A stretch of 64,000 nucleotides of DNA from contig NZ_QYUL01000001.1 in the NCBI RefSeq assembly GCF_003590795.1, forward strand, positions 1,257,001 to 1,321,000, in the 5' to 3' direction. This DNA comes from Azospirillum cavernae. Lineage in GTDB: Bacteria; Pseudomonadota; Alphaproteobacteria; Azospirillales; Azospirillaceae. The number at the start of each line of letters is the position of its first letter. Within the stretch, counting starts at the first letter, position 1. This document shows positions 16,250 to 57,501 of the stretch, one piece after another. The notes under the pieces are model-generated. The model was given only the letters and a program-made list of their open reading frames with translations, was not told the origin of the DNA and did not search any database. The position numbers and the translations under genes were made by a program.

Positions 16250-17896
16250 TCAAGACAGAAGCGGGCTTTCGACCTTCGGCGCTTTCCTGCGATTTTCGCA
16301 GGCGATCAACCCTCCATTCTCCATTTTGTAAAGAGAATCAGCCAAGCTGAAATAATGATCGTCGTGCGTGATCGCGATGATTGTTTTTCCTTGTTTCTTT
16401 AGGAGCGGAATGATTTCCGTGTAAAAGATGCGGCGGAACTCCGGGTCTTGATCGGCGGCCCACTCGTCGAGGATTAGGATCGACTTGTCTTCCAAGATGG
16501 CCGAAATCAGGGCCAGACGCTTCCGCTGCCCCTGAGACAGCGCGGTGGTGCTCCACGCCCCTTCGCGCAGCGCAACCTTGCCATCCAGCGCCAACAACCG
16601 CAGCAGCGGGTTTGCGACAGCCAAGGTCGGCGGCAAGCCTTCGGCGGTCAGCGCCTCGGCGAACAGATGAAAGTCGCTGAGGATCACCGCGACATGCTGG
16701 CGATACCACGCCGTTTGATCGGCGGTGATGGCCCGGTCAGCGAAACGGATGGCCCCCGCTTGGGGCGGGTAAAGCCCCGCGACCAGCCGGGCGAAGGTCG
16801 ATTTTCCCGATCCGTTGCCGCCAATGATGAAGACGATTTCGCCACGTTCGACGGTCAAATCGACCGGCCCGAAGGCGAAACCGGCATCCTCGCCGCGCGG
16901 CGGATAATGATAGGACAGCCCGCGCAACTCCAGCCGCGACCAGTCGGCGGCGGGGCGCGGCGGGGCGATGTCCTCCCCCGCTTCGGCCAGGGCCAGCGAC
17001 CCCACCGTCTGGACGGCGATGTTTCCGGCGATCCAATGCGGCAGGGAGCCAATCAGCCCGGCCAGCGGCGCGCGGATGAACAGCACCATGGTGGTGGCGG
17101 CGGTCGCCTGCTCGACCGTGCCGATCCCCAGCCCCTGTTTGAGGATGAGAACCGCAAGGATGGTCAGAAGGACGGCGCTGTTGACGAGGTTGGCGGTCAA
17201 CACCCCGAACAGGTCGGCGGTCGCTTCTTGCTTGCGGGCCTCGGCGGCGGCGGGGCGCAGACCGTCGCGCAGGAAGGCCAGCCGCCGCGCCCGGCTCAGC
17301 CGCAGCTCGTTTCGCCCCCGGATCAAGGCGTCGAACGCCTCATGGATCCGGTCATCGGCCATGCGGGCCAGCCGCTTGTGCCGCTTGGCGCGCCCACCCA
17401 GCGCGCGCGCCACGACGACGACCAGCCCCGTCACCAACGCCAGCGCCAGCGCGTAGACCGGCGACAGCCAGACCAGATAGCCATAGCCGCTGACCAGCAC
17501 GCTGCCGCCGAACATCACGAACGGCAGGCTGTTGAAGGCTTGGCTGATCGCCGCCACATCCTTGGTCAGCGTCGCCAGAATGCGCGGGCCGCCGATCCGG
17601 TCGATGGTCTCGACGTCGGTGGCCATCAACCGCTCGACCAAATTGAGACGGAGGTCCCGCACGATGTCGTGGCCTGCGCCAATAATCAGCGATTGCGACG
17701 CCAACCCCAGCCCGAACAGCGCGGCGATCAACGCCAGCCCGGCCCCCGCCGTCATCCACAAATGGACCGAAGGCGCGGCAAGGGCGTGGTTGAACAGGGC
17801 CACCGCGCTGATTCCGGCGATGGCCGCGCCCAGATTCAAAACGCCGCCCAGCGCCACGCGCCGCCAGCGGCCTTTCAGAATGGACAACAGCGTCAC
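16250..17896 (-). CDS. Cyclic-peptide-type siderophore ABC exporter (PvdE/SyrD-like)
   Basis: A fused membrane-plus-ATPase half-transporter of 548 residues. The N-terminal ~310 residues contain about six hydrophobic helices. The C-terminal ATPase has Walker A IGGNGSGKST (about 357-366), the signature LSQGQRKRL (about 452) and Walker B ILILDEWAADQDP (about 473). The EWAADQDP ending is typical of the PvdE-like family that exports NRPS siderophores or their precursors from the cytoplasm to the periplasm. The GTG start overlaps the stop of the PepSY gene (GTGA), so it is translationally coupled to the uptake genes upstream. Export of this locus's peptide is inferred from context. The family name does not prove that the product is cyclic. 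Confidence 0.88.
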   Translation of the reverse strand: MTLLSILKGRWRRVALGGVLNLGAAIAGISAVALFNHALAAPSVHLWMTAGAGLALIAALFGLGLASQSLIIGAGHDIVRDLRLNLVERLMATDVETIDRIGGPRILATLTKDVAAISQAFNSLPFVMFGGSVLVSGYGYLVWLSPVYALALALVTGLVVVVARALGGRAKRHKRLARMADDRIHEAFDALIRGRNELRLSRARRLAFLRDGLRPAAAEARKQEATADLFGVLTANLVNSAVLLTILAVLILKQGLGIGTVEQATAATTMVLFIRAPLAGLIGSLPHWIAGNIAVQTVGSLALAEAGEDIAPPRPAADWSRLELRGLSYHYPPRGEDAGFAFGPVDLTVERGEIVFIIGGNGSGKSTFARLVAGLYPPQAGAIRFADRAITADQTAWYRQHVAVILSDFHLFAEALTAEGLPPTLAVANPLLRLLALDGKVALREGAWSTTALSQGQRKRLALISAILEDKSILILDEWAADQDPEFRRIFYTEIIPLLKKQGKTIIAITHDDHYFSLADSLYKMENGGLIACENRRKAPKVESPLLS

Positions 17897-19398
17897 GCGG
17901 TTTCTCCCGCCAAGGCCCCGACGACCACCCGGCGCTGGCGCCAAGCGACGGCGAACAGCCAGCCTGCGAACAGCCAGGCGGTGGCGTCCACCACCATCAC
18001 CGGCGCGCATCCCAACCATGGCGCCGACGGAAACAGCGCCAGACGCAGCAGCGGCAACCCGGCGTAGGCGACCGCCAGCACCGGCAGCGCGACCCGCGAC
18101 AGGGCGGGCCGCAGCCGGTCCAGCGCGGGCAAAAGATGAAGCAGGATGGCCGCCGCCGCGACCGACCACACCAACCACGGCCGCGTCGCGCCGCTCACCA
18201 GATTGTCGGTCAGCAGGACCAGCGGCAGCAGGATGTACAGCGCGTTGTTGGCGGCGAACAGCCGCATCGACCAGGGAATCCGCCCATCCCGCCCCTTCTC
18301 GCCGCGCAACCACAGCAGCTTCATCCCGGAATCGACGATCCACAGACACAGAACGCCAAGCAGGCAATAGACCAGCGCCGTCGTGGTGCCGCCAAAGCGG
18401 GCGTAGTGCAACGGGCGCAGGGCGCTTTCCACCACCCCGGCCCAACCGCCGTCGCGGGCGTCGCGCGCCGGGCCAAGCGCGCCGTCGGACAGGGAACAAT
18501 CGGCGCGCAGGCTGCCAGCCCCCTCCCCCGCCCAGGTCAGGCGGCCATGGGGGATGCCCTCGACCATCAGCCGGTCGCCCTGGCGTTGGATGCGCCCGAC
18601 GCGCGCGTCGGGAAAGCGCTCGGCGAAACGATCCAGGCAGCGGGCGAAACCAGCGGGAACGCCGCCCGCCGCGTCCACCGAGGCTTTGCCCGGTTCGTCG
18701 TCGCTCATCAGGGCGCGCAGGGCGGCGGGGTTTCCCCCCGTCTGCAACACGGCGTCCAGCGGCAGGCTGGCCACCTTCAACCCCAGAATTCCGCCGGTCA
18801 GCCCCATGACGAACAGATAGGGGATCAACCAGAAGCCAAAACGCTTGTGCGCGTCGCTCAAATCAAGCAGCCGGGACCGGCGGCGCCAGCTCCAGGCCTC
18901 GCGGATCAGCTTGCCATGGATGAACAGGCCGGTGCCGACCAGCAGAACGATCAAAATCCCGGCCAACCCCATCAGGAACCGGCCATAGGGTTTGGGCAGC
19001 AACAGATCGGTGTGCAGCCGCCGGAACAGCGTGTCGGTCAGCACGCCGTTCCACGGAACCATCACGTCGGCGCCCGGATTGACCACCAGATTGGTCAGCG
19101 GCGCCGTCTCGCCAAAACGACCGGAAAAGATGAAGAAGGGGCGCAGCGGGTTGGGCGCCATCATCGTCCATTGCGCGCCCACCGCGTGGCGGGCGGCGAC
19201 GTGACGCAGGCTGTCCACCGCGTCGGGCGGCGGTTGAATAACCGCCGCCGCCAGCGCGGGCGTCATCCAGGGCCGGACGAAATCGGCGTAGAAGGCGAGG
19301 ATTCCCGTCCACAGCGACCAGGAAATCAACAGGCAAAACACCAGGCTGATGACCCGATGGATCGACAGCAAACGGTTGGACGCGGCCTGACTCAGCAT
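17893..19398 (-). CDS. PepSY-associated membrane protein, putative inner-membrane ferric-siderophore reductase
   Basis: A 501-residue inner-membrane protein with about eight hydrophobic helices. Four PepSY_TM-type helices come first (around residues 10-35, 140-162, 190-210 and 340-365), with a large periplasmic loop between helices 1 and 2 and another after helix 3. Histidines at helix ends (SIHRVIS, FIHGKLI, DAHKRFGFWL) fit the haem-ligating pattern of this family. FoxB-like members reduce ferric siderophores to release iron. Its place directly after a TonB receptor and before the exporter supports that role. The specific substrate is unknown. Helices 5-8 form an extra C-terminal membrane block. 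Confidence 0.8.
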   Translation of the reverse strand: MLSQAASNRLLSIHRVISLVFCLLISWSLWTGILAFYADFVRPWMTPALAAAVIQPPPDAVDSLRHVAARHAVGAQWTMMAPNPLRPFFIFSGRFGETAPLTNLVVNPGADVMVPWNGVLTDTLFRRLHTDLLLPKPYGRFLMGLAGILIVLLVGTGLFIHGKLIREAWSWRRRSRLLDLSDAHKRFGFWLIPYLFVMGLTGGILGLKVASLPLDAVLQTGGNPAALRALMSDDEPGKASVDAAGGVPAGFARCLDRFAERFPDARVGRIQRQGDRLMVEGIPHGRLTWAGEGAGSLRADCSLSDGALGPARDARDGGWAGVVESALRPLHYARFGGTTTALVYCLLGVLCLWIVDSGMKLLWLRGEKGRDGRIPWSMRLFAANNALYILLPLVLLTDNLVSGATRPWLVWSVAAAAILLHLLPALDRLRPALSRVALPVLAVAYAGLPLLRLALFPSAPWLGCAPVMVVDATAWLFAGWLFAVAWRQRRVVVGALAGETA

Positions 19399-19648: not shown

Positions 19649-19869
19649 CGCCGCCCCCGCGCGTCGGGGGATTCCCGCAGCAAAGCGGTCAGCAGGCTGC
19701 CGGACAACCCAATCTCCATCAGCGCCAGCGCGATCCCGGCCTCGGTCCCAACGCTGGGCAGCGCGACGGCCAATCCGCCAATCTGAAGCGCCCAAAAGGC
19801 GCCCCAGACCAGCAGACGGGTCCGGCGGTCTTGCGGATGCCGTTTAGAAATCAAGGCTGAGGCCGCCAT
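19645..19869 (-). CDS. Small two-helix membrane protein downstream of the TonB receptor
   Basis: About 74 residues with a basic N-terminus (SKRHPQDRRTRL) and two hydrophobic helices (WGAFWALQIGGLAVALPSVG and GIALALMEIGLSGSLLTALL). It overlaps the 3' end of the receptor gene by 26 bases if ATG 19869 is used; TTG 19854 is the other candidate. It resembles the DUF3325-type small proteins seen in siderophore uptake operons, but that is tentative. Coupled overlaps on both sides suggest one transcript: receptor, two small membrane proteins, PepSY protein, exporter. Confidence 0.6.
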   Translation of the reverse strand: MAASALISKRHPQDRRTRLLVWGAFWALQIGGLAVALPSVGTEAGIALALMEIGLSGSLLTALLRESPDARGRR

Positions 19870-22027
19870 AGACGGTGCGCGGCGCCCCGACCGACACACG
19901 GTAGGTGCCGCCCGACGCTGTCAGATACGCCTTGTCGGTCAGATTCTTGACGCCGAAATCGACGCGGACCTGCCGCTTGTCGCCAATCGGGATGTAGTAC
20001 CAAGCCCCGGCGTCAACCAAGGTGTAGCTGCCCAGCTCGAACGTGTGCTGCGCGTCGCCGTAACGGTTGCCGACCAGCGTCACGCCAGCGCCCAGCCCCA
20101 GCCCCTTCAACGGGCTTTGCGGGTCCTTGAACTCATAGCTCGACCACAGGCTGGCGTTGTGCGTCGGCACGTTGGTCGGGCGGTTGCCATCGACGGTTCG
20201 GTCGCCGCTGACCAGCTTGGCGTGGACCAGACCCACCGCCGCGCGGATGTTCCAGCCCTCCGTCGGGTTGCCGACCACCGACAACTCGCCGCCGCGCGAC
20301 CGCTGGCCGCCGGTCAGAACGGCCACGCCGTTGACGGTTTCCACCACATTGTTCTGCTTGATGTCGAACAGCGCGCCGGTCATGAACAGCCGCTCGCCCA
20401 TCAGGTTGATCTTGGTTCCAACCTCATACTGGCGGCCCTTTTCCGCCGGGAAAACCTGGGTGTCGCCGTTGTAGAAATTGTGCGGCTGGAAAGTGTCGGC
20501 GTAGTTGGCGAAGAAGGACACATCCTCCAGCGCCTTCCACATCAGGCCGGCGGTCTTGGTCAGGTTGCGGTCCACCGGGTAAGAGCCGGTGGTGACGCCC
20601 GCCCCCAACAGATTTTGCACCGAGGCGCTGCCCTTGGAATATTCATAGCGCGCGCCCAACGTCAGGGTCAGCGCCCTGGTCAGGCTGATGTCGGCCTGGG
20701 CGAAGGGGCCGAAATCGGTCTGATCGACCTTGCGGGCGGTCCGCGCCGTCGGTCGGGCGCTGTCATCGACCAAGCGCCAGCTCAACGGGTTGGACGCCGT
20801 GCCGCCGGTCTGGTTGGCCCCGACATAGTTGATCCAGCTTTCCCGCTGGTTGCGGTATTCGACGCCGGTGGCGAACTTCACCGGCAGCAGCGCCTCGAAC
20901 TCGCCCTTCACCTGCACGCGGCTGAAGAAGGTCCGCAGGTCGCGGTCGTCGTTGCCTTCCACGCGCCGAACCAAACTTCCGTTCGTCAGAACGCTGCGGA
21001 CCTCGGTGTGAATTTCGTCGGTTTTTTCGCGGGCGTAATACAGCTTGCCTTCCAGCTTCCAGGCCTCCGACCCCAGCGGAACCGACACGTCCAGTTCGCC
21101 CTGATGCGAGGTGGAATCGCGGTTGGCGAAGGTCGCGTCGTAACGGGTGTTGCGGCCCGGCTCGGTCACGCTGCGCAGGCTTCCGGTGGTCGGCACGGTG
21201 ATGAAGCCGCGATCCAGCGGGCGGCTGTCCTTGCCATACTCGTAGCCGACCGTCACCGTGGCCCCGTTGGCCCCCGCCCAGCTCAGGGTCGGGGCGAAGA
21301 ACTGACGTTGCACCAGGGTGGAATCGCGGAAGCTGTTGCTCGCCTCGGCGCTGCCGACGACGCGGTAGGCGAACTCCTCCGACAGCGCGCCGGTGCTGTC
21401 GAACATCGTTTGGCGTTCGCCATAGGAGTCGACGTTCACCTCAATGTGGTTGCGCGGGGTCCAACTCGGCTTTTTGGTGGTGATGTTGACCAGACCGCCG
21501 GGGGTCATCTGGCCGATGTCGGACACCGGACCCTTGATGATCTGGATGTTTTCCACCGTGCTGGGGTCGATGCGGCTGTTGCTCTTCAACCGAACGCCGT
21601 TGCGGTAAACATCGTCGCGGCGGCGGAAGCCCCGGATGATGTAATCCTCACGCGTGCCGCCGTAACCGTCGTTGTTCACCACGTTGGGGAAGTAGCGATA
21701 AACCTCCTCCATCTCGCGGGCGTGCTGGTCTTGCAGCAATTGTTCGGGGATGACGTCGATGGTGCGCGGGATGTCGGTGATGTCGTTGGACAGACGCCCG
21801 CCGACCTCGGTGACGCGGCTGTCGTAACGCGATTGCGGGGTGCCGCCGACCATCACGGAATCGAGCACAATCGGTTCAGCGCTCGCTTTGTCGCCGGTGG
21901 TCTGCGACACGACCGGCGTGGCCATCGCCACCGTCCCGCCCATCGCCACGGCCCCCAACAGAGCCAGACGCGACACCCCCGTCTTCGCCCAACGCCGTCC
22001 AACCGCCCCCATCACACCTGTCGTCAT
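19844..22027 (-). CDS. TonB-dependent siderophore receptor
   Basis: A 727-residue outer-membrane receptor for a ferric siderophore, presumably the product of the adjacent NRPS. A signal peptide (ALLGAVAMGGTVAMATPVVSQ) is followed by the plug domain: SNDITDIPRTIDVIPEQLL, YIIRGFRRRDDVYRNGVR and IQIIKGPVSDIGQMTPGGLV, then NITTKKP. The beta-barrel ends in the aromatic terminus YGGLSLDF. No extra N-terminal signalling (STN) domain is present, so it is not a sigma/anti-sigma-coupled receptor. ATG 22027 has GGGGGA upstream; a TTG lies one codon earlier. A Fur-type box lies 50 bases upstream, indicating iron repression. Confidence 0.95.
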   Translation of the reverse strand: MTTGVMGAVGRRWAKTGVSRLALLGAVAMGGTVAMATPVVSQTTGDKASAEPIVLDSVMVGGTPQSRYDSRVTEVGGRLSNDITDIPRTIDVIPEQLLQDQHAREMEEVYRYFPNVVNNDGYGGTREDYIIRGFRRRDDVYRNGVRLKSNSRIDPSTVENIQIIKGPVSDIGQMTPGGLVNITTKKPSWTPRNHIEVNVDSYGERQTMFDSTGALSEEFAYRVVGSAEASNSFRDSTLVQRQFFAPTLSWAGANGATVTVGYEYGKDSRPLDRGFITVPTTGSLRSVTEPGRNTRYDATFANRDSTSHQGELDVSVPLGSEAWKLEGKLYYAREKTDEIHTEVRSVLTNGSLVRRVEGNDDRDLRTFFSRVQVKGEFEALLPVKFATGVEYRNQRESWINYVGANQTGGTASNPLSWRLVDDSARPTARTARKVDQTDFGPFAQADISLTRALTLTLGARYEYSKGSASVQNLLGAGVTTGSYPVDRNLTKTAGLMWKALEDVSFFANYADTFQPHNFYNGDTQVFPAEKGRQYEVGTKINLMGERLFMTGALFDIKQNNVVETVNGVAVLTGGQRSRGGELSVVGNPTEGWNIRAAVGLVHAKLVSGDRTVDGNRPTNVPTHNASLWSSYEFKDPQSPLKGLGLGAGVTLVGNRYGDAQHTFELGSYTLVDAGAWYYIPIGDKRQVRVDFGVKNLTDKAYLTASGGTYRVSVGAPRTVYGGLSLDF

Positions 22028-22076
22028 CAATCATCCCCCAAGACGTAAAGCCCGTGGCGCGCCGCGCCATTCATTA

Positions 22077-22183: not shown

Positions 22184-22393
22184 TTAGGACGCGGCGTCCA
22201 ACGCCCGGCGCAAGCTGAGCGGGCGCATGTCGGTCCACACCCGATCAATGTGGGCCATGCATTCGTCCTTCGTGCCTTCAACGCCATCGCGGCGCCATCC
22301 CTCTGGGATTGGCTTGTAGCTTGGCCACAGGGAGTATTGCTCCTCATCGTTGACCACGACGAGCAAGCGCTGATCCGCGTCGTCCCACGCCAT
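22184..22393 (-). CDS. MbtH-like NRPS chaperone
   Basis: A 69-residue cytoplasmic protein that binds and activates NRPS adenylation domains. The family pattern is clear: VVNDEEQYSLWPSYKPIPEGW, then CMAHIDRVWTDMRPLSL. ATG 22393 has AGAGG upstream and matches the usual MbtH beginning (MAWDD). It is transcribed divergently from the hydroxylase-NRPS operon, from a shared region with two Fur-type boxes. It probably serves the Asp, Ser and Gly adenylation domains of the three synthetases. Confidence 0.95.
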   Translation of the reverse strand: MAWDDADQRLLVVVNDEEQYSLWPSYKPIPEGWRRDGVEGTKDECMAHIDRVWTDMRPLSLRRALDAAS

Positions 22394-22595: not shown

Positions 22596-23590
22596 GTGGA
22601 AACTCTGGAAAAACTGCCCCTGTCCATCGAAATCCGCAAACTGGGGCCGGGTCCCGGCGACGTGGTGGTGGTCGCCCCGCAGGACGACGCCCCGCAGCCG
22701 CTGACGCGGTCCGACGCGATCGCCGCCATCGTCGACCGCCATTTGCTGCGCGAGGGAGCCATCCTGTTTCGGGGGTTCGACATCCTTGGGGAACAGCCGT
22801 TCCAGGCCTTCGCGTCGGCGTTCGGCGATCCGCTGCTGGATTACCGCTTCGGCTCCACCCCACGCACCGACCTTGGCGACGGGGTTTACACCAGCACCGA
22901 ATACCCGGCCCATCAGGTCATCCCCCTGCACAACGAGCAGTCCTACACGCGGTCCTGGCCGCTGCGCTTGTGGTTCCATTGCGTGATCCCAGCGGAGGAG
23001 GGCGGCGAGACGCCCATCGCCGACAGCCGCATCGTGTATGACCGGCTGGAACCGGCCCTGCGGCGGCGCTTCGCCGAAAAGCGCCTGTGCTACAGCCGCA
23101 ATTACGGCGGCGGGTTGGATGTTCCCTGGCAAAAGGTCTTCGGCACGGACGACCGCGCCACCGTCGAGGGCTATTGCCGGGACAACGGCATCACTTGCGA
23201 GTGGAAGCCGGACGGCGATTTGCGGACCCGTCAGATCGTGCAGGCGGTGGCCGACCACCCGATCACCGGCGAGACCGTCTGGTTCAACCAGGCCCACCTG
23301 TTCCACGTCTCCAACCTCGACCCGGCGGTGCAAGAGGCGCTGCTGAGCATCGCGGGCGATTCCTGGAATTTGCCGCGCAACGTCTTTTACGGCGACGGCT
23401 CCCCGCTGGAGGACAGCGCGCTTCAGGAAATTCGCGGCGTTCTCGACGCCTGCACCATCCGCTTTCCGTGGCGGGCGGGGGACGTGCTGATGCTGGACAA
23501 CATGCTGTTCGCCCACGCCCGTTCGACCTTCCGGGGCAAGCGCAAGGTGCTGGTGGCGATGGCCCAACCCTGCTCGGAAGGAGCGGCCTC

Positions 23591-23594
<4 letters not shown>
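22596..23594 (+). CDS. Stand-alone TauD/SyrP-like Fe(II)/2-oxoglutarate dioxygenase, putative aspartyl beta-hydroxylase
   Basis: 332 residues. The iron ligands are visible as LHNEQSY (His112, Glu114, an HxE pair as in clavaminate-synthase-like members) and the distal FAHAR (His307) with the following basic segment for 2-oxoglutarate. In siderophore clusters such stand-alone enzymes hydroxylate the beta-carbon of carrier-bound aspartate, giving an iron-binding alpha-hydroxycarboxylate. This is the first gene of the NRPS operon, and its stop overlaps the GTG of the first synthetase (GTGA). GTG 22596 was chosen because GGAGG lies 5 bases upstream. Starts further upstream would run into the right Fur-type box. 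The three Asp modules downstream are the obvious targets. Hydroxylation of a different residue cannot be excluded by sequence alone. Confidence 0.88.
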
Positions 23595-31471
<7,877 letters not shown>

Positions 31472-31474
31472 ATC

Positions 31475-34400
31475 ATGACGACGACGGTCGATTCCCACGC
31501 CATCGCCGCGCGCCTGCACCGGCTGCCCGCCGAGACGCGCGCCCGCTTCCGCGCCCAGTTGGAGGAGCGCGGCGTTGACAGTTGGTCGCTCCCGCTCGTG
31601 CCGTTCTCCGGCGACGCCGTCGCCGACGGCGGCGAAACCGTCGGTCCCTTGTCCTGCGGGCAGGCCCGGCTGTGGGTGATAGACCGGGTCGAGAGCGGCG
31701 GCGGTCAACCGGGCACGGCGCTGTACAACCTCGCCACCCAGGTGGAGATCACCGGGGCGTTGGACGTCGCGGCCCTGCGGCGCGCGCTGGATGGGCTGCT
31801 CGAACGCCACGACATTCTGCGCACGGTGTATGAGCCGGGCGACGGCGACGGCGCGCCGCCGCGTCAACGGGTTCTGCCCCGCTGGCCCGACGTCTTGGAT
31901 GTCTTGACGCTGGACGACCCTGCCCCCGCCGCCCGCGACGCCCATCTTCAGGCCCGGTGCGACCGCCCGTTCGATCTGGCGCGCGACCCGCCCCTGCGCG
32001 CCCATCTTTTGCCGATGGGCGAGGGGGTTTGGCGTCTGCTTCTGGTGATCCACCACATCGCCTGTGACGCGTGGTCGGAAGCCATCCTGATTCGCGACCT
32101 CGCCCAGCTTTACGAGCGTCACGCGCAAGGCGCGCCGCCGCCGGTGACAGCCGCGCCAATCCGCCTGAGCCATCGCGACGTCGCCCGTTGGCAACGCGAT
32201 TGGCTGGAGGGCGGCGACTGCGCCCGCCAAACCGCCTTCTGGCGCCGCCATCTCGACGGCGCGCCGGAAGAGTTGGCTTTGCCGCTCGACCGCCCGCGCC
32301 CGTCCCCCTCGCGGCGCACCCATGAGGGGGCGGAGATCGAGGCGGCGATCCCCGCCGCCCAACTGGCCGGTTTGACCGCGCTGGCGGCCCGGCACGGCGC
32401 GACGCTCTACGCCGTCGCCCGCGCCGCCTTCACGCTGCTGCTGGGGCGTTACGGCGACACCGACGATCTGGTGTTGGGAACCACGGTGGCCAACCGCCAG
32501 CGGCCCGAATTGGCCGATCAGATCGGCTTCTTCGCCAACACCCTGCCGATCCGCCACCGCTTCGATTGGAACGACCGCTTTTCCGACTTCCTCGATCAAG
32601 CGACCGCCGTGCAGATCGAGGCGTTCGACCATCAGGATCTGCCCTTTGACCGGCTGCTCGACGCGCTGGAGATCCGACGCGGCGGCCCGGCGTCGCCCCT
32701 GTTTCAGGTCCTGTTCGTCCATCAGAACGTGCCGCGCGAGACTCTCGCGCTCGCCAACGCCGCCTTGCGGCCGCTGCCACTGCCCAAAAGCCGGGCGCGT
32801 TTCGACCTGACCTTGCGTCTGCACACCGGCGATCAAGCCCCGCGCGTGGCGCTGGAATACAGCCGCGAGCTGTTCGACGACGCCACGGCGGCCCGGCTGC
32901 TCGACGATTACGCCGCGCTGCTGGAGCAGATCGCCGAGGACGCCGATCAACCGCTGTCCACCTATCGTCTGCGCCATGAATCCACGCCGCTGCGCGGCCC
33001 GGCGGCGCTTGCGGCCCCCGACGACGCGCTGAGCGCCTTCCTGCGACAAGACGGCGCGCGCGCGGCGTTGCGCTGGACCGACGGGGCGATGAGCTACGCC
33101 GCGTTGAACGCGCGCGCCGACCATGTGGCGCGCGCGCTTGGCCGACAAGAGGGGCGGCGGATCGGCGTTTTGCTGCCGCGCGGCCCGGCCCAACCGGCGG
33201 CGATGCTCGCCGTGTGGAAGGCCGGAGCCTGCTGGACGCCGCTGGACGGCGCCCTGCCCGCCGAGCGGCTGCGCTGGATCGCCGAAGACGCCGCGCTCGC
33301 CGCCGTCATCGGCCAAGGCCCCGCGCCGCATTGGCTCCCGCCCGCCGCCGTCTGGCTTGACCTTGACCCGTCCGCCGAACCGGGTGACGCCGCGACGGCC
33401 CAAGCAACGGCCAGCCCCGCTCAACCGGCCCCGAACCGCCCGGCTTATGTGATCTACACCTCCGGCTCCACCGGGCGGCCCAAGGGGGTGGAGGTCAGCC
33501 ACGGCGCGCTGGTCGCCTACGCGCGCGGCGTCGCCGACGCGCTGAACTGGCCGACGGACGCGGCCTTGGCGGCGCTCTCCTCCGTCGCCGCCGATCTGGG
33601 CTTCACCAGCCTGTGGGGGGCGCTGCTGACCGGGCGGACGCTGCGCCTGCTCGACGACGCCGAATGCGCCGACCCGGAAACGCTGGCCCGCGCGCTTGAC
33701 CACGTCCCCGCCGATGTTTTGAAAATCGTGCCGTCGCATCTCGACGCGCTGCTGGCCCTGCCGTCGCCCCAGCGCTTGCTGCCGCGCCGCGCCCTGATTC
33801 TGGGCGGCGAGGCGGCCCCGGCGGGGTTGCTCGACCGGCTGGCCAGCCTCGCCCCCGCCATGGAGATCTGGAACCATTACGGGCCGACCGAGACCACCGT
33901 CGGCGTCGCCATCCACCGCCTGACGCCCGGCCAGGAAACCCACCTGAGCCGCGCCTTGGGCGACAGCGTCCTCCACACGCTGGACAGCCGGATGCGCCCG
34001 ACGCCCGTCGGGGCGGCGGGCGATCTGTGGATCGGCGGCGACCAATTGGCCCTTGGCTATGTCGGCGCGCCGGGCCTGACCGCCGAGCGCTTCGTCGCCA
34101 CCGCCGAAGGCGGGCGGCTCTACCGCACCGGCGACCGGGCGCGCCGCCTGCCCGCCAACGCGGCGAACCCCCAAGGCGGCGTCGCCTTCCTCGGGCGCGC
34201 CGACGGGCAGGTGAAGATCAACGGCTTCCGGGTGGAGCTGGGCGAAATCGAAACCCAGGCGCGCCGCGCGGGCGTCGCCCAGGCGGTCGCGCTGGCCGTC
34301 CCCGGCCCGAACGGCGCGCGTCTGGCGCTGGTCGCGACCGACGGCGGCCCGGACGTCGCCACGCTGCGCGCCCGGTTGGCCGAAACCCTGCCCGGCTACA

Positions 34401-37400
34401 TGACGCCGCGCGACATTCGGCTGGTGGAATCGCTGCCGCTGCTGCCCAACGGCAAGATCGACCGCCGCCGCCTGCTCGACGAGGCCGCCGCCCACGCCGC
34501 CAATCCACAAGGCGCCGCAGCGCCGGACCGCGCGATCAACGCGCTGACCGTCCGAATTCAGGCGCTGTTCGCGCGGGTGCTGACTCGCGCGGTCGGGCCG
34601 GACGACAATTTCTTCGCCGCTGGCGGCGATTCCATCCTTGGGCTGCGGTTGGCGGCTCTGGCCCGCGCCGACGGCCTGCCGCTGACGCCCAAAATGCTGT
34701 TCGAGCAGGAAACCCCGGCGGCGGTCGGCGCGGCGCTGGCCCAAATCCTGCCGCCCGAGGACGCGCCCGCCCTCACCCCCACCACCCAAGCGGTGCTGGA
34801 CCTGTTCCGCGAGGCCCTGCGCCGTCCCGATCTGGGCGCGGACGAGGATTTCTTCGCGGCGGGCGGCGATTCCATCCTGTGCCTTCAGGTCGCCGCCAAG
34901 GCGCGACGCGGCGCGCTGGCCTTGACGCCGAAGCTGGTCTTCGACCACCCCACCGCGCGCGCCGCCGCCGACGCCCTGGACCGCACGGCGCCGCCATCCA
35001 CCGCGAGCGCCATTCTGGACTCCGCCGCGCCCGTGCCGCTGCGGCCGATCCAGCGCTGGTTCCTCGCCCAGCGCCAGCCACGGCCCGGCCATTGGAACCA
35101 GTCGATCCTGCTGGAGCTTCACCAGCCGGTCGCGCCCGACACTTTGCAAGCCGCGCTTGACGCGCTGGTCCGCCGTCACCCGGCGCTGTCGATGGCGTTC
35201 GCCGCCGACCCGGATGGCGGTTGGACGCAAGTGTGGCGCCCGGCGGCGGGAGCCGTTCCGCTGTCCCGCCACCGCGTCGCCTCGGCGGACGCGCTGGACG
35301 CTTTGCTGCCAACGCTGCAACCGGAATTCGACCTCGCCCAGCCGCCCTTGATCCGCGCCGCCTTGATCGACAGCGACGCGGCGCCCCACGCCCATCTGCT
35401 GCTCTCCATCCATCATTTGGCGGTGGACGGCGTGTCGTGGCGCGTCCTGCTCGACGATTTGTTCAGCGCGTCGGGTCGGCTTTCCGATCCGGGCGACGGC
35501 CCGGTCATGGCGCTCGCCGCGTTCCACGCCGCCGCGACGCCCGACGACGCCCTGCTGGAGCGCGCCCGCGCCCATTGGCGCGACGAAGCTCCGGGGCTGC
35601 GCGCCGCGACCGACGCCATCCTCGCCCGCGCCTTCAACGGCGCCTTCAACGGCGACGCCCCGAAAGGCCCGTGGCGAAACCACGAGAGCGTCGAGCGTCG
35701 GGACACGCTGGACGCCGCCGGGCTTGGCCCCGCCCCGCGCGACGCGCTGCTCGCCGCGCTCTGCGAGGCTCTGGCGCTCTGGAACGGGCATGACGAGCTG
35801 GCGATCGAGATGGAGGCCCATGGGCGCGACGGGCTGGACGGCGCCCAGGCGACGGCGGTGGGTTGGTTCACCAGCCGCTACCCGCTGCGCCTGCGCTGGC
35901 GGGCCGACGCCAGCCCCGCCGCCAACCGCGCGGCCATCGCCGCGCAGGTGAACGCTGTGCCGGACGGCGGGCGCGGCTTCGGCCTGCTGCGCCACGGCCC
36001 GAACGGGGCGGCGGCGGAGGTCGCCAACCTCCCGGTTCCTCCGGTCGTGTTCAACCATCATGGCCAGATCAACAGGGGCGGTGACGGGGACGGATCGGTC
36101 CGCCGGTCGCCGCGCGCCGTGCCGAACCAGCGCCACCCCGACAACCACCGCCTGCACGCGCTGGAACTGGACACGGTCATCGAAGACGGAACCCTGCGCC
36201 TGCGTTGGGCGTGGCCCCGCGACGCCGCGTCGATGGCGGCGCTGCCTGATTTGTTCCTTGAGCGGCTGGCCGCTCATCTGTCCCTTGAGCGGCTCGCCGC
36301 CGCGTCGGACCCGGCGACCGAAGAACGCTACCCCCTGTCGCCGGTGCAGACCGGCCTGTTGTTCCACGCGCTGACCGACGCCGGGCGTGGCCAGTATCTC
36401 AATCAAGTGATCGTCCGGCTGGACGGCGCGCTGGACGCGGAGCGGTTCCGCGCCTGCTGGCAGGCGCTGGTCGATCATCACCCCGCCCTGCGCACCGGCT
36501 TCCACTGGCCGCAGGATGGCGACCCGCAGCAAAGCGTCGCCGCCCGCGCTGCCCTGCCCTGGCGTTCGCTGGACTGGAGCGCGACCGATTCCGGGCCGGA
36601 GGCGCTGCGCCGGGAGGCCGACCGCGATCTGGCCGCCGGGCTGGATCTGACCCGACCGCCGTTGATGCGGGTCACGCTGTTGCGCTTGGCCGCCGACCGC
36701 CACGCGCTGATCTGGACCCGTCACCACCTGATCGCCGACGGCTGGTGCACCGCCCGCCTGATGGGCGAGGTGGCGGAGCGCTACCGCGCGGCGCTCAATG
36801 GACAGGCCCCCGTCATCGACAGCCCGCCGCCCTACCGTGACTTCATCGCGTGGCTGAGCCGCCGCGATCCCGCCGCCGGGCGCGCCTATTGGGCCGAACA
36901 GGTCGGCGACGTGACCGAACCGGCCCGTTTGCCGCGCGGCGGCGCCCCCGACGGCGGCGCCCATCACCGCGAAACCGCCTTGTCCCCCGCCCGCTTCGCC
37001 GCGCTCAAGGCGCGGGCCGCCCGCGCCCGCGTGACCGTCAACACCCTGTGCCAGACGGCGGCGGCGTTGGCCCTGGCCCGCCACACCGGGCGCGACGACG
37101 TCATTCTGGGGGTCGTCGGGGCCGGTCGTCCGGTCGATCTGCCCGGCGCCGACCGCATGATCGGTCTGTTCATCACCACCATCCCCTTGCGGGTCCGCAT
37201 CGACCCGCACCAGCCGCTGGACGCGCTGCTGCGCGCCGTGCAGCGGCGGATGAGCGACGCCCGCGACCACGAACACACGCCGCTGACCGAGATTCAGGCG
37301 GCGGCCCCCGTCCGCGACGCGCTGTTCGACACGCTGCTGGTGTTCGAGAATTACCCGCTGCCCGCCGGATCGGGCGAGGGGCCGTTGCGCGCCACGCTGG

Positions 37401-39525
37401 AACGCGCCATCGAGCGCACCAACTACCCGCTCTCCCTGGTGCTGATCCCGCGCGAGGGGCTGACGCTGCGGACCACCGCCGACCGCGCGGTGATTGACGA
37501 CGCCATCGCCGACAGCGTGGCCGACACGCTGATGACCATCCTCACCCACATGGCCGACGCGCCAGAGCAAACGGTGGAGTCGCTGCTTTCCCTCCTCCCG
37601 CCGGGCGAGCTTGAGCGCCAGCGCGTTTGGAACGCGACGGCGTCGGACCTTGGCGGCTTCGCGCCGCTGGGGACGTTGTTGAGCGAGCAGGCGGCGCGGA
37701 CCCCCGACGCCGTCGCGCTGGAATGGGAAGCCGATGGCCGGACCGAGCGGCTGAGCTACGCCGCGCTCGACCGCCGGTCCAACCGGCTGGCCCATTGGCT
37801 GATCGCCCAGGGCTGCCGCCCCGACGACCGCGTCGCGCTCTGCTTCGACCGCTCGCCCGAGCTGGTCATCGCCATCCACGCCGCCGTCAAGGCGGGGTGC
37901 GCCTATCTGCCGCTCGACCCCGAACACCCCGCCGCCCGCCTCGCGACCATGCTGGAGGATGGCGGCGCGGCGTTGGCGCTGACACAAAGCCACCACCGCG
38001 ACCGGCTGCCCACCCCCCAGATTCCAGACGATCCCGGCCTGACCGTGGCGATCCTCGACGCCGACGCCACGCTCGCCGACGGCCAGCCCGACCACCTCCC
38101 CAACCGGCCCGTCGCCCCCGGTCAGTTGGCCTACGCCCTCTTCACCTCCGGCTCGACCGGGCGGCCCAAGGCGGTCGGCGTGCCGCAGGCCGGCCTGCTC
38201 AACCGGCTGCGCTGGATGCAGGACCGCTATCGCCTGTCCCCCGCCGACGCCGTGCTGCAAAAGACCCCCTACGGCTTCGACGTGTCGGTTTGGGAGTTCT
38301 TCTGGCCGCTGATGACCGGCGCCCGGCTGGTGCTGGCCGGACCCGGCGAGCATCGCGACGCCGCCCGCCTGACCGCCTTGATCGAGACGCACGGCGTCAC
38401 CACCCTGCATTTCGTCCCGGCGATGCTCCAGGTCTTCCTCGACGCGCTGGAGCCGGGCCGTTGCGCCGGGCTGACCCGCCTGCTGTGCAGCGGCGAGGCG
38501 CTGCCCGCCGCCCTGCGCGACCGCTGCCTCGCCGCCCTGCCCGCCGAACTGCACAACCTCTACGGCCCGACCGAGGCCTCCATCGACGTCACCGCCTGGG
38601 ATTGCCGGGCCGAGCCGCAAGGCTCCGTGCCGATTGGCCGCCCCATCGCCAACATCCAAACCTGGATCCTCGACGGCGCGCTGAACCCGGTTCCGGTCGG
38701 CGTCGCGGGCGAACTTTATCTGTCCGGGATCGGGCTGGCGCGCGGCTATCTCGGGCGACCCGGCCTGACGGCGGCGGCCTTTTTGCCGAACCCGCTGGCC
38801 GACAGTCCAGACCACCGCCTCCTCTACCGCACCGGCGACCTCGCCCGCCACCGCCCCGACGGCGCCATCGAGTATCTCGGGCGCGCCGACTTCCAGGTGA
38901 AGATCCGGGGCCAGCGCGTCGAATTGGGCGAGATCGAAGCCGCCCTGGCCGCCCTGCCCAGCGTGGCCGAGGCCGTCGTCGCCGCCTCCACCAGCGCCAA
39001 CGGCGAGGCGACTTGGCTCACCGCCTGGATCGTCCCCCCGGCGGGCATTCCCGCCCCCACCCCGGACGAGGCCCGCGCCGCCCTGGCCCACAGCCTGCCC
39101 GACCACATGATCCCCGCCGTCCTCCTCACCCTCGACCGCATGCCGGTCAATCAGAACGGCAAGATCGACCGCAAGGCCCTGCCCCAGCCGCAACCGCCCG
39201 ACAGCGGCGGAGCCGCGCCGCAGGGCGAGACCGAAGCCGCCCTGGCGACCCTGTGGAGCGAGCTTCTCGGCCACCCGATTGACAGCCGGGACGCGCATTT
39301 CTTCCTGGCGGGCGGGCATTCGCTGCTGGCCCCGCGTCTGGCGGCGCGCATCCGCGACCGCCTCCACCGCCCGGTCGAGCTGATCGCGGTGATGGCGCAC
39401 CCCGTCCTGCGCGATCTCGCCGCCCACATCGACGCGCTTCCGGTCGTTTCAAACACGATCGTTTCAAACACGGCCTCCCACGACACCGCGCCCGCCGACG
39501 GCGCCAGCTATGAACGGTTTGAGCT

Positions 39526-39529
<4 letters not shown>
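31475..39529 (+). CDS. Siderophore NRPS 2: C-A(Asp)-T-T-E-C-A(Ser)-T
   Basis: 2684 residues, modules 3 and 4. C (about 50-470) has HHIACDA (His193-194). A (about 505-1000) has pocket residues DLTKIGHVGK, Asp. Tandem carriers have serines Ser1053 and Ser1133 (both AGGDSI), 80 residues apart. E (about 1187-1610) has HHLAVDG and then VGWFTSRYP. The next C (about 1616-2040) has HHLIADG and the SPVQTGLLFH opening of D-to-L domains. The second A (about 2062-2569) reads DVWHLSLIDK, Ser. A single T (GGHSL, Ser2616) has no epimerase, so Ser stays L. The C-terminus is an acidic tail ending SYERFEL, facing a TubC-like docking domain in the next protein. The ATG lies 3 bases after the previous stop, and the stop overlaps the next start (ATGA). 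Confidence 0.95.
37595..39210 (+). repeat. Ser adenylation unit, copy 1 of a near-identical long direct repeat
   Basis: About 1.6 kb of the Ser adenylation domain is almost identical at the DNA level to 41035-42635 in the next gene. Copy 1 has 15 extra bases in the stretch after ALTQS. Confidence 0.9.
39444..39473 (+). repeat. 15-bp tandem duplication in the NRPS 2 C-terminal linker
   Basis: Two copies of a 15-base unit beginning TCGTTTCAAACACG encode VSNTI-VSNTA just after the last carrier domain. The duplication is in frame and lies in a linker. Confidence 0.85.
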
Positions 39530-52956
<13,427 letters not shown>

Positions 52957-52995: not shown

Positions 52996-55900
52996 TCAAT
53001 GGCCGACGCGGCGCAGACCACCCGATTGCGCCGCGCCGCCTTCGCTTGTCAGCGCGCTCAACAATCTCTGCGCGGCGTCGGCGAAGTTCAAACCATCGAT
53101 CTCGTCGCAAAGCTCCGCAAAGGACGGCTTTCCCAAGGATCCCGCCAGGGATGGGCGCATTCGCTCGAACAGGGTCATCGCGTTCATGCTCCGCGCGTTC
53201 AGGGTCTCGATCAACTCCATAACCTCGGCAATCACCAAGGGGGGTGCGTCCGCCGCGTCCGGCTCTTCAACAACGACGGACAAGCCGCTTCGCTGAACAG
53301 ACTGGTCAAGCGCGGAAAGCGCCGCGTCCAACCGCTCCAGCAAAGGCGGGATTTCCGCCGATGGCCCATGGCGAACGGCGTTCTCGGCCCTGTGCGCGCG
53401 CTCCATGACGTCAACGGCGGCGATGTTGCCCGCCGCCCCGCGAAGGGTGTGCAGCGTGCGCGCGGCTCCGTCTGGATTTTCCGCCGCAAGATCGCGGCGG
53501 ATTTGTGGGACGGCGTCGGTGAACTCGCGAACAAAACGGATCAGCAACGACGTGAACAAGGTCCGGTCTCCGCCCAAACGCCGAGAGACTTGGCCCATGT
53601 CGATTCCCGGCACGTCGACGTCCAACAGCTCGCCACGGTCGGGCGGGGGGACGAACAATTTTGACGCCGCCCCTTTCGACAGGGGGACCTGACGGCGGAT
53701 GGACCGCACCATCTGATCGACATCAAAGGGTTTGGCGATGAAATCATTCATGCCGACCTGCTCCGCGCGAAGACGTTCGGACGCAAGCGCGCCCGCCGTC
53801 AAGGCGATGATCGGCAGATTGGCAAGCCCCAGATCCTGGCGGATGCTCCGGGTCGCCTCATAGCCGCCCATCACCGGCATGTGCACGTCCATCAGCACAG
53901 CGTCGAACGCCGCGTCGTCGGCGATCAATCGGTCCAGCGCCTCCTGGCCGTTGGCGGCGACCGTCACCGCCGCTCCGTTCAGCTCCAGGATGCGCCTTGC
54001 CACCTCCTGGTTCACGACATTGTCCTCCACCACCAACAGCCGCAGGCCATCCAACCCAGCGCCGTCGCCCCCACCACAGGGTCCATCCAATCGGGGCAGG
54101 TCGTCCGGCGTCGGCTGGGGCACGCTGGACACGCCCAGGGGAACGGTGAACCAGAAACGGCTGCCACGGCCAAGTTGGCTCTCGACGCCGATCTGCCCGC
54201 CCATCAGCTCAACCAACCGCTTGGAGATGCTCAACCCCAGACCGGAGCCGCCGAAATGCCGGGTGATGGAGTTGTCCGCCTGACTGAAGGCGTCGAACAG
54301 GGTTGGCAAGATGGTCTCGGCAATGCCGATTCCGGTGTCCTGAACGGTGAAACGCAGCATGACCGCCCGACCCTCGACGTCAACCCGCTCCACCCGAAGG
54401 GTGACGGCGCCCTTGGTCGTGAACTTGATGGCGTTGCCGGTCAGATTGATGAGCACCTGCTGCAAACGCAGGGCGTCGCCGATCAGCGCGTCCGGCAGGT
54501 CGGACGCCGCGTCGATCACCAATTCCAAATCCTTGGCGCTGGCGTTGGCCGACATGATGACGGAGATGGCGTCCAGCAAATCAGAAAGCCGAAAATCCGC
54601 TGTTTCCAGTTCCAAACGTCCCGCTTCGATCTTCGAGAAATCAAGGACGTCGTTGATGATGGCCAGCAAACCGCGCCCCGCGACCTGGATCTTGCGCACC
54701 AGATCGCTCTGTTCCGACGACAGGGCCGTCCGTTCCAGCAGATATGAGAGGCCAAGCACGGCGTTCATCGGCGTTCGGATCTCGTGGCTCATGTTGGCCA
54801 GGAATTGCCCCTTCGCCAGACTGGCCTCTTCCGCCCCCTGTTTGGCCAACCGCAACTGACGTTCAAACGCCTGACGCTTCCCGATGTCTTGAACGACGCC
54901 CAGATAGCCGATGATGCCGCCATCGCCATGCCGGATGGCGGTGACGATGAGAGAAACCGGAAATTCGGAGCCGTCCTTGCGGACATAGGTCCACTCGCGG
55001 CTTTCGGCTCCGTCGATCTCCGCCTTGTGGACAAAGACGCGGAAGCCGTCGATGGCGACGCCAAACTCGGTCTGCAAGTCCTGGGCGCGTGCGACGACCT
55101 CGTCCATCCGGTGAAGCACGGCTGGTGTCTGGACGCCCACCATCTCGCCCGCGCTGTAACCGAGCATGCGTTCGGCGCCCCTGTTGAAAATGGTGATCGT
55201 CCCTTGCGGATCGGTGGCGATGATCGCGATTTCCGACGCCGCATCAAGGACGCCGCTGAGCAACCGATTGCTGCGGTTGCGCTCCTCCTCGGCAAGCTTG
55301 CGGGCGGTGATGTCGATCCGCAGGGCGACATAACGCTCGATGCGCCCGTCATCGCCCCGAAAGGGCGCGAACACGCTGTCCATCCACAGCGGGCGGCCAT
55401 CCTTGGCGTGGTTGCAGATCTCGCCGCGCCAGGTGCGGCCCGCCATGATGGTCGACCACATCTCCCGCCAAAACTCCGGCGGATGGACCCTCGAACTGAT
55501 CGTCCTGTGGGTCCGCCCAACCAACTCCTCCGCGCTATACCCCATGGTCCGGCAGAGATTGTCGTTGATCTCAAGAATCCGGCCTGCGGTGTCCGTGACC
55601 GAACACAGCAACTGTTCATTGATCGTCCGCAGCAGCACCTCGTTTTCCCGCAAGGCGGCGGCGAGTTTCAGGCGATGCTCGACGATGTCCGACACGTCAT
55701 GAACCAGGACGAAAAAGCCTTGCACCGCGCCATCCGCCTGATCGGGCAGAAAATGCACGAGGGAGTGGCGCACCCCGGAACCGTCTGGTTTGGGAACAGT
55801 CCGCTCGAACGTCTGCGATTCGCCGCGCAAAGCCGCTTCCGTATGGGGACGATTGCTCTCGAACAGCGCGTCGCCCAAAAGCTCTCTCATCGATCGTCCC

Positions 55901-57501
55901 GGCAGGGCCGTCGTCTCGATCCCGAACCGACGGGAATAGGCCCGGTTGGCGAAGCGGCAGGTCAAGTTCCGGTCCCAATAGCCGATCATCGATGGAACCG
56001 CGTCCAGAACGGTTCGGAGGGTATGACGCGCCGCATCCAATTCAGCCGTCCGTTCCACCACCTGCCGTTCCAAATCGACGTTGAATTGCGCAAGGCGGCG
56101 CTCTGCCGCCTTGCGCTCTCCGATGTCGCGCATCAGCTTGGCCACGCCGACGACGCGCCCACGCTCGTCCTGAATGGCGCTGACCGTGACAGACACCTCG
56201 ACCACGCTTCCGTCACGATGCAGGCGCAAGGTGTCAAACGAGGTCACGTCCGACGCGCCGCTGTTGACACGTTGCAGCAGCGTCAGGTCCTCGTCCCAAC
56301 GATCCTGGGGCAACAGAAGCGGGGCCAGCGGTTGCCCGACAACCTCGTCCTGTTGATAGCCAAACAGACGCTCCGCCGCCCGGTTCCAGCTTATGACGGT
56401 TCCGTCCATCCCCTCGCCGACGATGGCGTCGCCGGAATTTTCAACGATGGCGCCCAAACGGCGCCACGCCAGATCGGTCATGCGTTTGCGGGCGCGGTTC
56501 AGCCCCAACGCCGCCGCCAGCCCAGCCGCCAGCAAACTGGCGCCGCCGCCGATGAGCAGAACCAGAGACGGCGTCGCCGGATTCAGGGAAGGACCGAAGG
56601 CCGGGCGGGCGGCGACGTCGATCCGCCACCGACGACCGAACACGTCGCGCTCAAGGGCCTGCGTGGCCAAGGGCCGACGATCCGGCGTGTCCTTGACGGA
56701 CGAAAAGATAACGTCGGCGACGCCCGCATCGGTGATGTCGCTCAATTGAAGATCAAACAGCGCGCCGTCGATGTGAAGCGTGCTGAGCACCTCCAACATG
56801 CTCAGTGGCGCGTACGTCCAGCCGACCGCCTCAGCCCGCCGGGCCTCCACCGTCGTCGGCGCGCCCGTTCCTCGATAAACGGGCATCAGGATCAAAAACG
56901 ACTGCTGCGGCCCGCCCACAGCTTGAACCAGAGTGATCGGGCCGGTCAGCCGGGTTTCTCCGCTGTCCATCGCCGCAACGGCGGCCTTGCGCCGGTTTGT
57001 TTCGGACGCGATGTCAAGCCCGACCGCCGGACGGTTGCGCTCGACCGGCTCAATGTAACGGATGACGTAGCGCTCCCCATCATGCGGCGCAAATTGCCGG
57101 ATGGCGAAATCGGGCCAATCATCCTGTCGCGCCGTTTCAAGAAAGGCGGCCTCGCCCTCCTGGGTCACGCGCTCGATAAAGCCGAAACCGCGCGCCCCGG
57201 GAAACTCGGAATCGACGTCGCGCGTCAGGCTGTAACGATGAAACCGCTTCCGACTCAGCCCTACGTCGCTGACCGCGACCACCGCGCCGCGCGCGCCGCG
57301 CAGCCCGTACTGGTACAGTGTCACCCGATCCACGATGTCGGAGGCCATCCTTTCGGCGGCGGTGGACAGCGCGTCACGGACGCGCTGATCGTTGAGCCGC
57401 TCAATCTCCCAGGCCGCGCCGCCCGTGAGGGCCAGCCCGACCATCAGCGTGATGAGAAACCAGAGGAACGACACCCGACCGGGCTGAAGGCTGGTCAACA
57501 T
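52996..57501 (-). CDS. CHASE-PAS hybrid sensor histidine kinase with receiver and HPt domains
   Basis: 1501 residues. A membrane helix (about 10-30), a periplasmic CHASE-type sensor (with [20 protein letters not shown]), a second helix (about 312-334) and four PAS domains (about 345-890) lead into the kinase core. The phosphorylated His906 is in SHEIRTPMN, and ATPase motifs include GNAIKFT, DTGIGI and [10 protein letters not shown] receiver domain has Asp1205 (MDVHMP). The HPt domain has His1351 ([10 protein letters not shown]). It is a full internal phosphorelay without an output domain, so it must hand phosphate to a separate regulator not seen nearby. GAGAGGA precedes the ATG. It converges on the NRPS operon with 39 bases between; a functional link to iron is not shown. 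Confidence 0.93.

Follow-up and report, generated by a model that had tools for sequence, protein, structure and literature searches.

Enzymes that tailor peptides in trans must locate the correct carriers on megasynthases, and the locus described here raises the question of how a single free-standing hydroxylase could serve three aspartate modules carried on three separate synthetase proteins. The locus lies in a 64,000-nucleotide stretch of the Azospirillum cavernae genome (contig NZ_QYUL01000001.1, positions 1,257,001 to 1,321,000 of the forward strand), the whole of which we refer to as the window and along which unprefixed coordinates are counted. In this plant-associated soil bacterium, one free-standing enzyme appears to carry out three Asp hydroxylations, which would yield a scavenger that holds iron via hydroxyaspartates only.

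The hydroxylase and its neighbours

The hydroxylase gene and the genes beside it are as follows.

16250..17890, minus strand: cyclic-peptide-export ABC transporter (TIGR01194, 347.3 bits against a cut-off of 286.2)
17893..19398, minus strand: PepSY_TM membrane protein, candidate ferric-siderophore reductase
19844..22030, minus strand: TonB-dependent siderophore receptor (TIGR01783, 314.8 bits against a cut-off of 223.5)
22184..22393, minus strand: MbtH-like protein, about 69 aa, divergent from the hydroxylase (PF03621 at 22244-22384)
22596..23594, plus strand: stand-alone Asp beta-hydroxylase of the TbetaH-Asp type, 332 aa, HxE...H, GTG start (profile, alignment, predicted fold, tree)

Translation of the hydroxylase begins at a GTG codon at 22596, with a ribosome-binding site (GGAGG) 5 nt upstream, and ends at a TGA (23592-23594) that overlaps the GTG with which the first synthetase gene, NRPS1, begins. 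The protein matches Pfam TauD (PF02668, E = 5.7e-50), with an HxE motif formed by H112-N-E114 (HNEQSY) and further residues H307 and R316, all four of these positions being invariant across the homologues in two alignments (8/8 and 23/23). Its AlphaFold model (mean pLDDT 79.1, pTM 0.81) matches the TauD/At3g21360 fold and is weak at residues 81-120, a stretch that includes the HxE motif and reaches a pLDDT of only about 48-63. Profile, fold and the H-x-D/E...H plus Arg residues are all those of a TauD/TfdA Fe(II)/2-oxoglutarate dioxygenase, and NCBIfam profiles gave no match near any cut-off; the hydroxylase adds a member to an enzyme family already known.

An initial annotation of this DNA had noted a single HxE-type TauD/SyrP-like ORF that is fused to no synthetase, and both points are borne out by the Pfam match, the HNEQSY motif and the genome searches. 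A search of the genome with the enzyme returns only itself, a Pfam TauD search of the same genome adds just two weak matches of 27.9 bits each, and no TauD domain is found in NRPS1, NRPS2 or NRPS3, so that a fused or second hydroxylase in this genome can be rejected. The receptor, the MbtH-like protein and the peptide exporter adjoin the synthetase genes, as befits a siderophore cluster. The MbtH-like frame is shorter than the length limit of the ORF list, and the exporter ORF extends to 18499, with the TIGR01194 match starting at about 17890.

The clade of the hydroxylase

In a tree of 66 representatives, obtained by thinning the tips at 93% identity, the enzyme falls within a stand-alone clade of 45 tips (support 0.989). 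An enlarged tree gives a clade of 50 tips, all of them stand-alone-size ORFs with zero fused members (support 0.969), and including the partial sequence of MobD, the tistrellabactin enzyme, gives 51 tips, again with no fused member (support 0.929). Only the C-terminal part of MobD was used because the Tistrella mobD record (NC_017966.1 345895-346838) reads in two overlapping frames. The nearest sister of the window enzyme is the Vibrio/Moritella group, a placement of low support (0.109). By clade, then, the hydroxylase is of the TbetaH-Asp stand-alone siderophore type. The phylogeny proposed as a check in the initial annotation thus groups the enzyme with stand-alone siderophore Asp hydroxylases, and a grouping with non-siderophore TauD enzymes is rejected; the same placement supports the earlier view of a siderophore enzyme that necessarily acts in trans if several Asp are modified.

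The fused IbetaH-Asp hydroxylases and SyrP belong to the same family, share its chemistry and are about 40-45% identical to the window enzyme, but they form a separate clade, and the Asp carriers in those modules mostly read GGHSLxV. The IbetaH-Asp enzymes reportedly act with interface domains. The window enzyme is neither fused nor within their clade. SyrP itself, cited as an Asp hydroxylase (PMC3207962), is represented by loci L172 and L184 in a syringomycin-like context; the P. syringae KUIN-1 gene (L172) adjoins a Thr-like A-T protein and a synthetase that begins with Ser-Ser. We give almost no credence to the alternative that the window enzyme is SyrP-like and serves a toxin or lipopeptide pathway, forming the opposite (L-threo) diastereomer. 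The TauD family, the HxE motif and a 40% match to the KUIN-1 protein are common ground, but SyrP belongs to the fused-type clade and not to that of the window enzyme, and the divergent neighbours of the hydroxylase are a siderophore receptor and an MbtH gene. An eLife paper likewise places SyrP with the fused type (PMC12971057).

This placement bears on stereochemistry. The initial annotation had reasoned from stand-alone organisation to the erythro diastereomer, a step that is unsafe: SyrP and the enzymes at G030:28850 and G032 stand alone yet group with the fused-type clade and not with the window enzyme, so it is clade, not gene organisation, that carries the prediction. Stand-alone genes of the L174/L169 type also fall outside the window enzyme's clade. 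Within the TbetaH-Asp type, MobD is described as hydroxylating at 3R to give L-erythro with a GGDSI carrier (PMC10391617), and DlcD and DelD (of delftichelin and delftibactin) are assigned (2S,3R) (PMC13122642). The window enzyme would, by its clade, yield L-erythro (2S,3R) beta-hydroxyaspartate.

The assembly line and its predicted backbone

Domain order was read from profiles built on the window's own domains and from Pfam, which agree.

23591..31471, plus strand: NRPS1, C(starter)-A[Asp]-T-T-E-C-A[Gly]-T
24998..26458, plus strand: A domain of residue 1, code DLTKVGHVGK (Asp)
26501..26956, plus strand: tandem carrier domains, both GGDSI (26501-26722, 26735-26956)
26999..28276, plus strand: E domain after Asp1, HHxxxDG kept, second motif EEHGR
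31475..39529, plus strand: NRPS2, C-A[Asp]-T-T-E-C-A[Ser]-T
33035..34486, plus strand: A domain of residue 3, code DLTKIGHVGK (Asp)
34514..34969, plus strand: tandem carrier domains, both GGDSI (34514-34726, 34754-34969)
35000..36274, plus strand: E domain after Asp3, HHxxxDG kept, second motif EAHGR
39526..52956, plus strand: NRPS3, TubC_N docking-C-A[Ser]-T-E-C-A[Asp]-T-T-E-C-A[Gly]-T-TE
45616..47082, plus strand: A domain of residue 6, code DLTKIGHIGK (Asp)
47128..47619, plus strand: tandem carrier domains, both GGDSI (47128-47349, 47404-47619)
47668..48942, plus strand: E domain after Asp6, canonical EGHGR
52111..52953, plus strand: terminal thioesterase

The synthetases form a three-gene operon in which NRPS2 and NRPS3 overlap as ATGA. 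Nine positions of each A-domain code were read by alignment and the final K was assumed. The three codes DLTKVGHVG, DLTKIGHVG and DLTKIGHIG, which specify Asp, stand beside DILQLGVIW and DVWHLSLID, each present twice and specifying Gly and Ser, respectively. Each synthetase carries one Asp code, as the initial annotation had it, and together the modules predict a backbone of Asp-Gly-Asp-Ser-Ser-Asp-Gly. The C domain that opens NRPS1 joins the initial C domains of other clusters with Asp at the N-terminus (13 tips, support 1.0); we take these to be acylating starters, as in such lipopeptides, and the heptapeptide is probably N-acylated.

Several features of the operon and its surroundings may be recorded alongside. 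The two Ser A-T regions (37600-39250 and 41040-42690) are 94% identical in DNA across 1668 bases, their Gly counterparts (29650-31320 and 50320-52000) being 95% identical across 1682 bases, compared with only 47-49% protein identity among the three Asp A domains, a pattern that we read as recent duplication or gene conversion for the Ser and Gly modules and not for the Asp modules. The first C domain of NRPS2 (31634-32962), together with the C domain of a Vibrio/Moritella module that has no A domain, is placed next to C-like domains located ahead of fused hydroxylases (support 0.781). Directly after NRPS3, and convergent with it, lies a CHASE/PAS hybrid histidine kinase of 1501 aa with receiver and Hpt domains (52996-57501, minus strand). 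Elsewhere in the genome, a second large NRPS locus (G000:C3:245000-270000) contains a 5679-aa frame with non-Asp codes and no hydroxylase match.

Predicted epimerisation of the Asp residues

All three Asp-module E domains keep HHxxxDG and the Glu and His of ExHGR, and the canonical EGHGR is found only at residue 6 of the three, which makes a D configuration firmer there than at residues 1 and 3 (EEHGR and EAHGR). Among 91 E domains surveyed, in which some rows repeat one locus, EGHGR occurs in 31/33 single-carrier Asp rows, 35/38 single-carrier rows for other residues and 3/15 tandem-carrier Asp rows, and is absent from the remaining five (four that lack an A domain, one with a triple carrier). 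Variants of ExHGR are thus frequent in E domains that follow tandem carriers (12 of the 15 Asp rows). On these motifs, D is well supported for residue 6 only among the three Asp.

Epimerisation at C2 converts L-erythro (2S,3R) to D-threo (2R,3R), not to D-erythro. The earlier prediction of erythro followed by D therefore keeps its D at residue 6, is less secure at residues 1 and 3, and has to be changed in the diastereomer expected of the product, which would be D-threo. Residues of this kind occur in megapolibactin (PMC6771848), gramibactin (PMC9679993) and the loihichelins (PMC6836290). The same correction applies to genome-mining software, for which stand-alone organisation is insufficient to assign stereochemistry and E domains that convert L-erythro to D-threo have to be taken into account.

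A probable role for one enzyme at several sites

A precedent for one enzyme at more than one module is the pyoverdine of P. syringae 1448a, whose sequence by MS/MS is Lys-Asp-Thr-Thr-Ser-Asp-Ser with both Asp hydroxylated and for which the single SyrP-like gene of the locus was proposed, from homology, as the hydroxylase (PMC3207962). The P. cerasi locus (L119) has one such gene before synthetases reading Lys / Asp-T(GGDSILS)-E, Thr / Thr, Ser / Asp-T(GGDSILS)-E, Ser-TE, a module order equal to the 1448a residue order. Like the window, this system (hydroxylase of the Pspph1922 type) pairs one stand-alone enzyme with several Asp modules that sit on separate proteins and each contain a GGDSI carrier and an E domain; it differs in having two sites and not three, a single carrier per module, and a chromophore that gives further ligands. 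The tistrellabactin (MobD), delftibactin (DelD) and delftichelin (DlcD) pathways also combine a stand-alone HxE-bearing TauD enzyme (DelD lying outside our tree) with a GGDSI-type Asp carrier, but each has one hydroxylated Asp among several ligands, in contrast to the three Asp modules of the window with their tandem carriers and E domains.

In the window, tandem carriers occur at exactly the three Asp modules (3/7 modules), and all six carriers read GGDSI with the serine intact. This is the T_E carrier type associated with TbetaH-Asp enzymes, found here in 6/6 and non-diagnostic because E domains follow; since GGDSI is usual before any E domain, the motif alone is no proof of hydroxylation in this operon. 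Of 398 genomes sampled from the phylum, the 18 whose A domains matched best, the genome of the window aside, were picked before their carriers were seen and searched for the hydroxylase (a further Asp row, L216/G159, lay outside this test). All 18 A domains read Asp, and 17 of the genomes have a stand-alone homologue 55-62% identical to the window enzyme together with a DSI-type carrier (GADSI in one). In the eighteenth, G396 (C2:1094543-1095466, with L206), the best hydroxylase match is 42% and the Asp carrier reads GGHSLLA; the match sits in a 1525-aa frame. Carrier type is thus linked to the presence of the enzyme, although wherever an E domain comes next the comparison leaves hydroxylation and epimerisation confounded.

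The same comparison speaks against a reading in which free Asp is the substrate of the enzyme and beta-hydroxyaspartate is what the A domains load, since the A-domain code is that for Asp throughout, whereas the carrier type changes according to whether the enzyme is present. SyrP, moreover, acts on carrier-bound Asp, and we regard the free-Asp route as very unlikely. A less remote alternative is that the enzyme selects among modules, so that only one or two Asp are hydroxylated and other ligands come, for example, from the acyl group or the C-terminus. P. capeferrum WCS358 offers an argument for it: the same enzyme type lies beside two Asp modules, one with a GGHSLLA carrier and no E domain and the other with GGDSILS and an E domain, and its pyoverdine contains one Asp and one OH-Asp. 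As these carriers differ, selection among Asp modules probably does happen. All three Asp modules of the window, however, carry GGDSI, twice each; the tandem layout is kept in Azospirillum B510 at three modules and in strain 412522 at the two covered; and recognised ligands would fall below six without three such groups. We consider partial hydroxylation unlikely, and modification at all three sites likely.

From these comparisons we infer that the hydroxylase most likely works in trans, with L-Asp bound as a thioester to the GGDSI-type carriers of all three Asp modules as its substrate, which would give L-erythro (2S,3R) beta-hydroxyaspartyl thioesters whose C2 the E domains would epimerise to D-threo (2R,3R), most securely at residue 6. 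The product would be a probably N-acylated Asp-Gly-Asp-Ser-Ser-Asp-Gly in which three beta-hydroxyaspartates alone chelate Fe(III). Taken whole, this reading of a TbetaH-Asp enzyme and a tris-beta-hydroxyaspartate heptapeptide siderophore seems to us probable. Because a single operon here combines one enzyme with three target and four non-target modules, and because Asp carriers differ in related systems such as that of WCS358, the recognition code could be tested by carrier-domain swaps.

Tandem carriers and their distribution

At loci that surround the hydroxylase, an A domain with two carriers behind it is seen in 21/97 Asp rows and in 0/153 non-Asp rows, with truncated loci counted and A domains with unread code positions dropped. 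The corresponding Fisher value (5e-10) overstates independence because the rows are redundant, G026 and L072, for instance, being the same genome. In the phylum sample the counts are 2/19 Asp rows against 0/10 others. Tandem carriers are not obligatory, as they are found with and without E domains and single-carrier Asp-T-E modules are common. A need for tandem carriers when hydroxylation is combined with epimerisation is rejected by the single-carrier A-T-E modules of P. cerasi and by the 33/97 Asp rows with a single T then E. A division of labour, with the first carrier serving the hydroxylase and the second the E domain, is likewise unsupported, both by the carrier tree, where the two NRPS1 carriers pair together, as do those of NRPS3, and by T-T before C without E in 6/97 rows. 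We suggest instead that the doubled carriers may be a capacity adaptation for a slow in-trans step, because a single enzyme must serve three places.

The layout recurs in a few relatives. Azospirillum B510 (G004) has the same arrangement of one enzyme and three Asp modules on three proteins, with tandem carriers at all three, and Azospirillum 412522 (G026) follows the same plan as far as its contig goes, with tandem carriers at the two modules covered. A plasmid of V. harveyi N8T11 (NZ_CP154268; L183, 14000-62000) has the order TonB (minus), MbtH (minus), hydroxylase (plus), then NRPS genes; it shares with the window this gene order, the sequence Asp-Gly-[Asp]-Ser-Ser-Asp-Gly and tandem carriers at the Asp sites. 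Moritella DT_65 (L073), read up to its second Asp-site module, shares gene order and tandem carriers. Both differ from the window in that the second Asp-site module has no A domain and the first no E domain, and V. harveyi alone has three carriers at its third Asp-site module and two at the other sites. The second Asp-site module of V. harveyi is C-T-T-E, so that Asp would need to be loaded in trans.

Ligands and novelty

A genome search for a siderophore-type N-monooxygenase, the mark of a hydroxamate, gave no full-length match and one partial Lys/Orn-oxygenase match (38.9 bits, 117 residues), which is ordinary because that profile also matches in 12/14 control genomes. The genome encodes two chorismate-binding proteins (508- and 795-aa frames); by their size these are taken as Trp/pAB-type, and a catechol pathway is provisionally set aside. 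The genome thus yielded no gene for a hydroxamate, a point that, like the tandem carriers and the syntenic Vibrio cluster, goes beyond the initial annotation. On this search, which covered hydroxamate and catechol functions, three beta-hydroxyaspartates would be the only recognised ligands and would supply six oxygen donors to Fe(III).

Literature searches for a tris-hydroxyaspartate siderophore or this Azospirillum cluster, and for tandem carriers at hydroxyaspartate modules (the latter with Reitz et al. 2019 (PNAS) outside its scope), found nothing, and the Azospirillum siderophore clusters named in a passage of PMC3899980 are of pyochelin and enterobactin type, not the window cluster. The enzyme type is known; its triple use and the doubled carriers at those sites look unusual. 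The proposed pathway, a three-site, tandem-carrier, hydroxyaspartate-only system, varies a known theme, with the one-enzyme, two-Asp-module pyoverdine of P. syringae as its precedent. If the reading is true, a tris-beta-hydroxyaspartate siderophore would be a chelator class not found described in the literature searched. It is conceivable, if somewhat doubtful, that a few Azospirillum and marine Vibrio/Moritella share siderophores in which Fe(III) is bound solely by three beta-hydroxyaspartates made by one trans-acting enzyme, with tandem or triple GGDSI carriers as a capacity adaptation. Fe(III)-bound beta-hydroxyaspartate photolyses (PMC10391617, PMC9679993), and a product with three such residues would therefore probably be strongly photoreactive.
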